Part shown: positions 17,638 through 19,757 of the stretch, one piece after another | How the letters are laid out: the number at the start of each line of letters is the position of its first letter | How positions within the stretch are numbered: the first letter of the stretch is position 1 | IMG/VR virus record: IMGVR_UViG_3300045241_000162 | Coordinates: 1 to 21,081 of that record | DNA length: 21,081 bases | DNA from: a virus | Reading direction: 5' to 3' (one strand) | Translations under genes and position numbers: made by a program | The notes under the pieces: model-generated | Databases searched by the model: none | Told to the model about the DNA's origin: nothing | Seen by the model: only the letters and a program-made list of their open reading frames with translations

Positions 17638-17645
17638 AAATGAAA
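17638..17645. repeat. Target-site duplication, left copy (AAATGAAA)
   Basis: The 8 bp immediately outside the left inverted repeat are identical to 19750-19757 outside the right one. Eight base pairs is the usual duplication for IS1595-family elements. Confidence 0.9.
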
Positions 17646-17670
17646 GGCGTCTATATATTTTGCAAACACG
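17646..17670. repeat. Left terminal inverted repeat of the IS1595-family element
   Basis: The 25-bp end starting GGCGTCT and ending TTTGCAAACACG matches the complement of the right end at 23 of 25 positions. Confidence 0.92.
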
Positions 17671-17730
17671 CGCTACGCCCGTTTCTGGCGCAGCAATAGA
17701 GCAAAGTCAGGCGCATCAAGGGATTGCGCC

Positions 17731-18669
17731 ATGTCTCACCTTTCAGCCCCACACTTTCACAACGAAGAAGCTGCATTCGCCTTCGTCGAGGGGATCATTT
17801 GGCCTGAAGGGCCTATTTGCCCGCACTGCGGCGGTGTTGAGCGCATCACGGCGATCAGGCCCAATCCCGAAAAGCGCATCCGTCATGGCTTGAAGCGCTG
17901 CGGCCAGTGCAAGGGTCAGTTCACCGTTCGCATGGGCACGATTTTCGAGGAGTCCAAGCTTCCTATGACCAAATGGCTACAGGCCATTTTCCTCATGTGC
18001 GCGAGCAAGAAGGGGGTTAGCGCCCATCAGCTACATCGCACCCTCGACACTACCTATAAGACCGCTTGGTTCCTTGCCCACCGCATCCGTGAGGCCATGC
18101 GCTCGGGTGATCTGGCACCGTTTGGCGTCGAGGGTGGCGCTGTTGAGGTTGACGAGACCTATATCGGCCGTGACCCGGGCAAGCCCGTGCGCCGCGCCTT
18201 CCACCACAAGATCAAAGTTCTGACGCTCGTTGACCGCACGAGCGGCCAGGCCCGCAGCATGGTCGTGAACGACATCCGCCCGGCCACACTGGCCCCGATC
18301 ATCCTCGAAAACCTCGACCGCGAGGCGCGCTTGATGACTGACGAGGCTGGTCATTACCTGCATGTGGGGCGCGAGTTCGCCCAGCACGGCGTCGTCCGAC
18401 ATGGGCGCGATGAGTACGTGAACCCGAGCGACCGCACGATCCACACCAACACGATTGAGGGCTATTTCAGCATCTTCAAGCGCGGCATGAAGGGAGTCTA
18501 CCAGTGCGCCTCGAAGAAGCACATGCACCGCTATTTGGCGGAGTTCGACTTCCGCTACAGCAACCGCATCGCCCTCGGGGTGGACGATCAGGCTCGCACG
18601 CGCGTAGCCTTGCAAGGCGTGGTCGGGAAGCGCCTGACCTATCGGCGGACTAACGAGGCCCACGGGTGA
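17731..18669 (+). CDS. IS1595-family transposase (ISXO2/DDE type)
   Basis: The 312-residue enzyme is full length. An N-terminal zinc ribbon (CPHC at 30-33, CGQC at 57-60) for DNA binding is followed by the helical KGVSAHQLHRTL region and a DDE-type catalytic core: VEVDETYIG (Asp141), LMTDEAGHY (Asp204) and HTNTIEGYFSIFKRGMKGVY, where IS1595 members have Asn or Glu as third residue (Asn240, Glu243). It cuts the element ends and joins them to an 8-bp staggered target. AAGGGA lies 8 nt before the ATG. The GTG of the next ORF overlaps its TGA, so that ORF is co-translated. No frameshift or missing catalytic residue is seen. Confidence 0.95.
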   Translation: MSHLSAPHFHNEEAAFAFVEGIIWPEGPICPHCGGVERITAIRPNPEKRIRHGLKRCGQCKGQFTVRMGTIFEESKLPMTKWLQAIFLMCASKKGVSAHQLHRTLDTTYKTAWFLAHRIREAMRSGDLAPFGVEGGAVEVDETYIGRDPGKPVRRAFHHKIKVLTLVDRTSGQARSMVVNDIRPATLAPIILENLDREARLMTDEAGHYLHVGREFAQHGVVRHGRDEYVNPSDRTIHTNTIEGYFSIFKRGMKGVYQCASKKHMHRYLAEFDFRYSNRIALGVDDQARTRVALQGVVGKRLTYRRTNEAHG

Positions 18670-18833
18670 AATCGAAAACGCCAAAGCCGGACAATCCAGC
18701 CCAGAGCCGGAAGTTCATCGAGGCCGCAAGGGCGCTAGAGGCCGCTGGTCAACTCGACCCCATCGACGCCTCCGAAAAGTTCGAAAGCGCGATGCGGACA
18801 ATAGCGAAGCCTAAGTCCAAGGATTCGACTTAG
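18666..18833 (+). CDS. Small basic protein coupled to the transposase
   Basis: A 55-residue ORF with a GTG start overlapping the transposase stop (GTGA). It begins VKSKTPKPDNPAQSRKFIEA then ARALEAAGQL. Its pattern K-P-x-N/D-P-x-Q-S-x-x-F-I-E-A-A is one I associate with small ORFs downstream of IS1595-type transposases, from memory and unverified here. Likely a helical accessory protein of transposition or a regulator. Its short length and GTG start make it easy to miss. Confidence 0.65.
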   Translation: MKSKTPKPDNPAQSRKFIEAARALEAAGQLDPIDASEKFESAMRTIAKPKSKDST

Positions 18834-18872
18834 ACACCCATCCGTGGAATCTATCGCCCGTCGTCACTCGGC

Positions 18873-18997
18873 TTGAACACCGCTGGCGATGCGCTTCACG
18901 CGCACACACAGGAGCCCCGCTTTGTCGGGCGGCTCCCGAAATAAAACACCTCTCGTAGGGAATACGGGGGGCGCGTTCCCTGTGTGCGCGTGTTCAA
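18873..18997 (+). ncRNA. Folded region upstream of the lipoprotein gene
   Basis: CACGCGCACACACAGG (18897-18912) pairs with CCTGTGTGCGCGTG (18979-18992) with one 2-nt bulge. Inside, GGAGCC (18911-18916) pairs with GGCTCC (18931-18936), sharing two G with the long stem. Outside, TTGAACAC (18873-18880) can pair with GTGTTCAA (18990-18997). It lies in the 200-nt gap before the lipoprotein and could be a leader or a separate RNA. Nothing else is seen in this gap. Confidence 0.4.
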
Positions 18998-19035
18998 CCG
19001 TCCCGGCTCAGGTCGGACGAACACGGGGGAATCTG

Positions 19036-19305
19036 ATGCTTCGTATCGTGACCATTGCGGCTGTTCTGGCGTTGAGTGCCTGCGCCTCGTCTAGCGGGGC
19101 CTATCAGGTGGGTGACAACACCTACCGCATCACTGCCTCGGCCTGGACCAGCATGGGTGGTCAGGGCACTGCCAAGGGATCCGCGGTCAAGACAGCCAAT
19201 GCAACTTGCGCCGCCAAGGGGATGCATCCCGTGGTCGTGGCGGAGAATGGCAATGCGCAGTTCACCCAAGGCAGCGTGGATGTGACCTTCAAATGCGTTC
19301 CGTGA
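19036..19305 (+). CDS. Small lipoprotein carried by the IS1595 element
   Basis: The 89-residue protein has a signal peptide MLRIVTIAAVLALSACASSS with lipobox LSAC, so Cys16 would be lipidated and the mature protein held in the outer or inner membrane. The mature part (about 74 residues) has YQVGDNTYRITASAWTSMGG, then alternating strands and the end VDVTFKCVP, with a Cys pair (NATCAAKG and FKC) likely to form a disulphide. Small periplasmic lipoproteins with NTYR and a C-terminal F-x-C are common in Proteobacteria, with no clear function. ATG 19036 has GGGGGA upstream. As a passenger in a phage genome it might alter the cell surface, for example against superinfection; this is speculation. Confidence 0.82.
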   Translation: MLRIVTIAAVLALSACASSSGAYQVGDNTYRITASAWTSMGGQGTAKGSAVKTANATCAAKGMHPVVVAENGNAQFTQGSVDVTFKCVP

Positions 19306-19309
19306 CGCC

Positions 19310-19477
19310 GTGTTGGTCTTTCAAATCGCCGGGGGAATTCTGCTCGCTTGGGCAGTAATCAGCTATCCACGCCAAGCTCTGGGCTGCGTGATCATGCTGG
19401 CCGGCGTTGCGGCGGTCATTCTGATCTTCGCGCTCGTGCTCATGTGGCGCGGTGCTGGCCCCTGGAGGGCTGGCTGA
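19310..19477 (+). CDS. Small two-helix membrane protein carried by the IS1595 element
   Basis: GTG 19310, 4 nt after the lipoprotein stop, opens a 55-residue frame: VLVFQIAGGILLAWAVISYP, then RQALG, then VIMLAGVAAVILIFALVLMW and the tail RGAGPWRAG. Two hydrophobic helices of about 18 residues with a short Arg-containing loop are clear. There is no ribosome site, so translation probably depends on coupling to the lipoprotein. The hydrophobic pattern is unlikely by chance, but the start is uncertain (TTG 19313 is the next candidate). Function unknown. Confidence 0.55.
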   Translation: MLVFQIAGGILLAWAVISYPRQALGCVIMLAGVAAVILIFALVLMWRGAGPWRAG

Positions 19478-19508
19478 CTCAATGATCGAATCGTGATCCG
19501 CTCACATT

Positions 19509-19702
19509 GACGCCCCGAGGCTGACCTTTACCTCGGGGCGTCTCAGCTGCCGGTTCGGAGACGGTAGCCGTGTCGAGATGCTGGGGCGACCGTACCGCCA
19601 GCATCTATCAGGAGGTTGACCACCTCCAGTGGGAACCCGCACTGCGGTGCGGGGTAGTCGGTGGGACTAAGGGGCGATGCCGTTGGATGCGGCATCGCCC
19701 CT
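19509..19702 (+). ncRNA. Array of six perfect hairpins at the right end of the IS1595 element
   Basis: The 272-nt gap after the membrane-protein gene holds no ORF but six consecutive perfect stems: 12 bp (19509-19520/19531-19542), 9 bp (19576-19584/19598-19606), 6 bp (19611-19616/19622-19627), 7 bp with tetraloop TGCG (19636-19642/19647-19653), 5 bp (19655-19659/19665-19669) and 13 bp (19670-19682/19690-19702). CGGTA at 19562-19566 could also pair with TACCG (19593-19597) in the second loop as a pseudoknot. No T-run follows any stem, so these are not plain terminators. The density suggests a structured RNA or a single-strand recombination substrate. The strand is not certain, since stems fold on both. 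Confidence 0.5.
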
Positions 19703-19724
19703 CCGCCACACGCGAAACGGATCA

Positions 19725-19749
19725 CGTGTTTGCAAAGTATACAGACGCC
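19725..19749. repeat. Right terminal inverted repeat of the IS1595-family element
   Basis: Inverted copy of the left end (23/25), running from CGTGTTTGCAAA to AGACGCC; the mismatches are single bases at two inner positions. Confidence 0.92.
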
Positions 19750-19757
19750 AAATGAAA
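19750..19757. repeat. Target-site duplication, right copy (AAATGAAA)
   Basis: Identical to the 8 bp at 17638-17645. Its last three bases are the beginning of the terminator of the decoration genes, so the target was the tail of that terminator. Confidence 0.9.

Follow-up and report, generated by a model that had tools for sequence, protein, structure and literature searches.

A phage-borne IS1595 passenger transposon with a dense hairpin array and a candidate cis-acting leader related to sRNA-Xcc1

Clean insertion of an IS1595 element is expected to leave an 8-bp duplication of the target. The RNA family sRNA-Xcc1 (RF02221) was reportedly called a trans-acting sRNA in a 2011 paper. Mapping in Xanthomonas gave an sRNA-Xcc1 of 88 nt, and on Northern blots its signal appeared near 100 nt (PMC2996969). 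There it precedes symE within an integron cassette (PMC12444791), and Xylella harbors seven copies (PMC12189769).

The element analyzed here resembles IS1595 passenger transposons in its transposase and zinc ribbon, inverted repeats, 8-bp duplication and passengers between the transposase and the right end, but differs in its right-end hairpin array, with a comparable array in 0/34 other delimited elements. The array shares with hairpin terminators, including clusters that lack a U-tract, GC-rich stems that directly follow a unit's last gene and are usable in both directions, but consists of seven hairpins in a row, is closed by a basal stem, and has a U-tract in none of them. The leader upstream of the first passenger gene has the P1 (GUCGGG/CCCGGC), the P2 (with AAUAcAAuACC and GGGAAUA) and the P3 hairpin of sRNA-Xcc1 and likewise precedes a gene on a mobile element. 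Unlike sRNA-Xcc1, it stands directly upstream of a lipoprotein gene, and its longer P3 loop pairs with an extra upstream strand; it scores 30.6 bits, below the gathering score of 53.

An intact IS1595 element in a viral record

The window, meaning the whole stretch of DNA analyzed, is a 21,081-bp IMG/VR virus record that encodes a P22-like portal and a large terminase. It carries an IS1595-family element whose order on the + strand is transposase, small basic ORF, leader, lipoprotein gene, 53-aa ORF, hairpin array and right inverted repeat:

17646..19749, + strand: IS1595-family passenger transposon, 2104 bp, intact
17646..17677, + strand: left terminal inverted repeat
17731..18669, + strand: IS1595 transposase, 312 aa
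about 18666-18833, + strand: small basic ORF
18892..19030, + strand: structured leader RNA, sub-threshold sRNA-Xcc1 relative, upstream of the passenger lipoprotein gene and ~600 bases from the array
19036..19305, + strand: passenger gene starting immediately 3' of the leader and encoding an 89-aa protein with an apparent lipobox signal peptide
19316..19477, + strand: possible second passenger ORF, ~53 aa, membrane-spanning by eye
19487..19732, + strand: seven-hairpin domain, closed by a basal stem (19487-19500/19718-19732)
19718..19749, - strand: right terminal inverted repeat, the inner part of which forms the 3' arm of the basal stem

The transposase contains DDE_Tnp_IS1595 and zinc-ribbon domains (PF12762, E=1.5e-30; PF12760, E=2.6e-10), the ends match those of relatives, and the 8-bp target duplication AAATGAAA, read from the sequence, occupies both flanks (17638-17645 and 19750-19757). 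Inverted repeats, duplication and transposase together confirm the bounds of the element and the original prediction that the array lies within it.

Pfam returned no match for the 89-aa lipoprotein, the 53-aa ORF or the window's copy of the small charged ORF at ~18666-18833, and a protein query with the lipoprotein, run without a positive control, retrieved no relatives from viral contigs or 249 genomes. The lipoprotein of another element (L081) shares with that of the window (19036-19305) a C-terminal TF(K/D)C(V/I)P-like motif, which suggests distant kinship. Short charged ORFs of the kind at ~18666-18833 (pattern like KFxxLAR...EKLKKV...PKPP) recur in the IS1595 passenger elements L004, L006 and L011 and, as judged by eye, in L003.

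A seven-hairpin array at the right border

The segment 19509-19702 was originally described as six consecutive perfect stems of 5-13 bp. All six are present; a further hairpin containing a G-U pair (19546-19568) had been overlooked, and the true total is seven:

19509..19542, + strand: hairpin 1, 12 bp, perfect Watson-Crick
19546..19568, + strand: hairpin 2, 7 bp with one G-U, absent from the first count
19576..19606, + strand: hairpin 3, 9 bp, perfect Watson-Crick
19611..19627, + strand: hairpin 4, 6 bp, perfect Watson-Crick
19636..19653, + strand: hairpin 5, 7 bp, perfect Watson-Crick
19655..19669, + strand: hairpin 6, 5 bp, perfect Watson-Crick
19670..19702, + strand: hairpin 7, 13 bp, perfect Watson-Crick

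The array is non-random. Its perfect stems amount to 52 bp in 194 nt, compared with a mean of 12.5 (sd 6.3, maximum 30) in 300 dinucleotide shuffles, and 0/3465 other windows of background DNA matched this value. Folding z-scores of -6.9 for the + strand RNA, -8.0 for the - strand RNA and -7.4 for DNA bear out the dense folding first noticed (z about -7 to -8), and the segment including the basal stem (19485-19735) gave -7.7. This stem has a 9-bp perfect core (CGTGATCCG at 19492-19500 with CGGATCACG at 19718-19726) and, beyond a bulge, reaches 19487/19732. The final passenger ORF stops ~31 nt before hairpin 1, and the right end of the domain falls within the right inverted repeat. A proposed pseudoknot between CGGTA (19562-19566) and TACCG (19593-19597) has to be given up as an addition to the fold: the CGGTA bases already belong to the 3' arm of hairpin 2, so the pairing competes with that hairpin. 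The observation that no hairpin is followed by a T-run or U-tract holds for all seven, on either strand. No promoter-like site for the array was found.

We then compared the array with related elements. Loci with related transposases were fetched from bacterial genomes (40) and viral contigs (4), and both ends could be defined in 27 elements. These share the transposase and similar ends and, where the cargo was read, differ in it; none has a comparable array, which speaks against the idea of an IS1595-conserved RNA. Hairpin density at sampled offsets, scored against 34 other elements (the 27 and 7 delimited later), reached 51 in the window's element, 45 in L133 and 37 in L078, and in the final 450 bp before the right end it was at most 33 in all 34 others. 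A strong fold 3' of the passenger in L071 was set aside as a counterpart: it consists of chromosomal palindromes outside that element.

Homology searches gave a similar picture. At the DNA level, the searches covered phages, plasmids, 398 Caulobacterales genomes and 131 genomes from a single genus, and apart from one 35-nt match they yielded only chance-level matches; the genome searches scored few candidates per genome, so that a diverged copy could escape. The 35-nt match (31/35, in L085) was rejected, as it did not extend and scored 8.4 bits with the array covariance model. Pattern scans of IMG/VR produced either nothing or two unrelated single-hairpin matches. A covariance model built from the array alone (R1) recovered, among the relatives, only the window's own array, and Rfam gave no credible match at gathering or permissive thresholds, in line with the original failure to place the array in a known family. 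The array thus appears to be an orphan, so far unique among the genomes, phages and plasmids searched, and because no homolog was found, the data do not allow it to be called a conserved RNA.

Possible roles of the array

We tentatively read the array as the folded 3' end of the passenger transcription unit, a possible rather than a probable role, in which it would most likely act as a two-way transcription block at the right border and protect the 3' end of the mRNA. The unit would comprise the leader RNA, the lipoprotein gene, the small membrane ORF and, reaching into the right inverted repeat, the seven-hairpin domain. If transcribed, the array would arrest RNA polymerase without a U-tract, blocking rightward passenger transcripts and leftward phage transcripts, and would shield the passenger mRNA at its 3' end. 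Almost every pair in the stems is Watson-Crick, which lets the two strands fold to the same degree, as expected of a two-way barrier. On the right side, the next phage genes are encoded on the - strand and point at the array (orientation from ORF length and start; no Pfam match).

Two other elements offer parallels. L133, a second, unrelated IS1595 element in another viral contig, has a dense hairpin run of unrelated sequence 3' of its transposase gene; the last hairpin of this run (11 bp) carries a partial T-run. In L078 the corresponding place is occupied by a textbook terminator hairpin followed by a T-run. These cases suggest that units in the IS1595 group can repeatedly acquire hairpin clusters at their ends, without sequence homology. 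The run in L133 (~1701-1837, between transposase and leader) also contains CACCTCCTTTCT, which we take to be identical to the 16S rRNA 3' end, possibly by chance.

Several features argue against the 3'-end role. The stem-loops are GC-rich, as an intrinsic terminator requires, but the U-tract that should follow is absent from every hairpin, and the array is therefore not a canonical intrinsic terminator. Seven hairpins exceed what a terminator needs, most IS1595 relatives manage without such a structure, and the basal stem hints that the hairpins form one folded unit and not a series of independent terminators.

That one folded unit could be a discrete structured non-coding RNA, either an independent sRNA or a ribonucleoprotein scaffold, forming a multibranched domain on the basal stem. 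The very strong fold (z -7.7 over 19485-19735) with a stem closing the whole set, the lack of a convincing coding sequence, and the single G-U pair of hairpin 2, which favors a + strand RNA, are consistent with this proposal. Neither Rfam, BLAST nor the single-sequence covariance model supplied a relative, however, and the array has neither a promoter-like site nor an associated protein gene except the passengers; we regard a discrete RNA as unlikely.

Folded DNA is a more doubtful alternative, whether as a substrate for recombination or transposition, as a single-strand origin, or as what is left of a small nested element ending at the right inverted repeat. Near-perfect stems on both strands, the single-stranded DNA fold (z -7.4) and the position of the basal stem's right arm within the terminal inverted repeat would suit it. 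Yet the integron attC motifs RYYYAAC and GTTRRRY are absent as a spaced pair, leaving the earlier suggestion of a folded single-stranded recombination site unsupported; the element has no second gene for single-strand processing, and the array has no copy elsewhere in the record or in 398 Caulobacterales genomes and is missing from the 34 other delimited elements.

Least probable is the capture of host intergenic REP-like palindromes as functionless cargo: palindromic repeat clusters do lie beside elements in related genomes (the L071 flank and L022) and the cargo of this IS group is highly variable, but REP-like units are multi-copy and mutually similar, whereas the seven hairpins differ from each other and the array is single-copy in the 21-kb record, with only chance-level matches in the 398 Caulobacterales genomes searched.

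The leader and the sRNA-Xcc1 family

The general idea of a structured RNA on this mobile element stands, at a different place: the region with comparative support is the leader at ~18892-19030, outside the hairpin array. Its parts, all on the + strand, are:

18906-18912, + strand: PK5' strand
18924-18929/19002-19007, + strand: P1
18933-18938/18965-18970, + strand: P2
18971-18975/18987-18991, + strand: P3, with its loop at 18976-18985
19021-19030, + strand: Shine-Dalgarno region

A passenger-region query identified DNA relatives of window positions 18843-19029 in 16/299 Caulobacteraceae genomes; two further weak matches (L063 and L064) involve other parts of the query and are not counted among the 16. 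The segment 18924-19015 has the P1, P2 and P3 core of RF02221 with the conserved AAUACAAUACC and GGGAAUA motifs, and matches that family below threshold (E 9e-4). Sub-threshold matches occur at the corresponding place in 14/17 homologous loci (29.8-39.3 bits). A covariance model of the leader (R2) recovers its homologs and further members. Among 22 contigs returned by a motif scan of IMG/VR, R2 matches 18 strongly, and the other four carry bona fide RF02221 members at 78-80 bits (L130 5721-5805, L137 6110-6194, L138 10510-10594 and L142 86-170). Separately, one viral contig (L145, 8181-8259) contains a suhB/mmgR RNA (RF00519, 47.6 bits).

In most Caulobacteraceae loci a gene follows directly after the leader, and in 14 of the 18 loci inspected by eye the N terminus of its protein is a signal peptide, lipobox or membrane segment. 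Besides the window, six loci (L071, L078, L081, L083, L133 and L134) hold the leader and a small passenger gene within an IS1595 element bounded by clear inverted repeats, and five of these elements also have direct duplications at their ends; their transposases are ~30-51% identical to the window's. The association of the leader module with the IS1595 family thus appears recurrent. Other contexts include the phage loci L130, L137 and L138, where the RF02221 member lies just upstream of an ORF judged antirepressor-like from its sequence, and a Providencia stuartii plasmid (L153, 3001-3088), where an sRNA-Xcc1-like sequence precedes an annotated Rha-family regulator by ~42 nt.

Pairing within the leader was assessed by permuting strands among sequences (5000 permutations) in sets of 23, 42 and 24 members with slightly different segment rules. 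Segment boundaries followed motif rules and the score was the best contiguous match, so the results speak to complementarity, not to a fixed structure. In the 42-member set, the P2 helix covaried, with pairing of 5.48/6 versus 4.45 permuted (z 8.3). The P3 loop was complementary to the strand that precedes P1, which defines a pseudoknot, at 26.2 versus 17.0 (z 13, 0/5000). The P3 loop also matched the post-P1 stretch that holds the Shine-Dalgarno sequence (21.0 versus 18.2, z 5.1, 0/5000). This loop-Shine-Dalgarno signal had been weaker in the first run of 23 members, where 138/5000 permutations reached it. In a thinned set of 24 dissimilar members it gave z 5.7, against 1.3 and -0.2 for two control stretches further downstream; the nearer control gave 2.7 in the full set, so some relatedness effect persists there.

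The same complementarity between P3 loop and downstream Shine-Dalgarno region is present, with differing sequences, in the bona fide RF02221 members of phages L130, L137 and L138, for example UCUCGUUG with CAACGAGG in L130 and CUUUGAG with CUCAAAG in L138. It was also seen by eye, outside the permutation test, in L153 (CUCAGAA with UUCUGAG) and L151 (CUCUUCAG with CUGAAGAG).

These patterns suggest that the leader works in cis as a translational switch instead of acting as a free sRNA. Pairing of the P3 loop with the upstream strand would leave the Shine-Dalgarno region free and the gene on; pairing with the Shine-Dalgarno region would close it and turn the gene off. The permutation tests support both pairings, and we infer that they would alternate in time in response to a trigger. 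Taken together, we consider it on balance probable that the leader belongs to a broad phage and IS1595 superfamily including sRNA-Xcc1, in which the P3 loop alternates between an upstream strand and the Shine-Dalgarno region, that RF02221 is a cis-acting switch rather than primarily trans-acting, and that the array forms the matching 3' end of the unit.

The array alone is a curiosity pending a homolog or a transcript, and the leader is the better lead. It would bring the passenger genes of IS1595 elements, phage antirepressor-type genes, Rha genes and a Xanthomonas integron cassette under a single RNA architecture. For a family whose annotation is that of a trans-acting sRNA, it also predicts a simple mechanism in which a loop pairs with the Shine-Dalgarno region.
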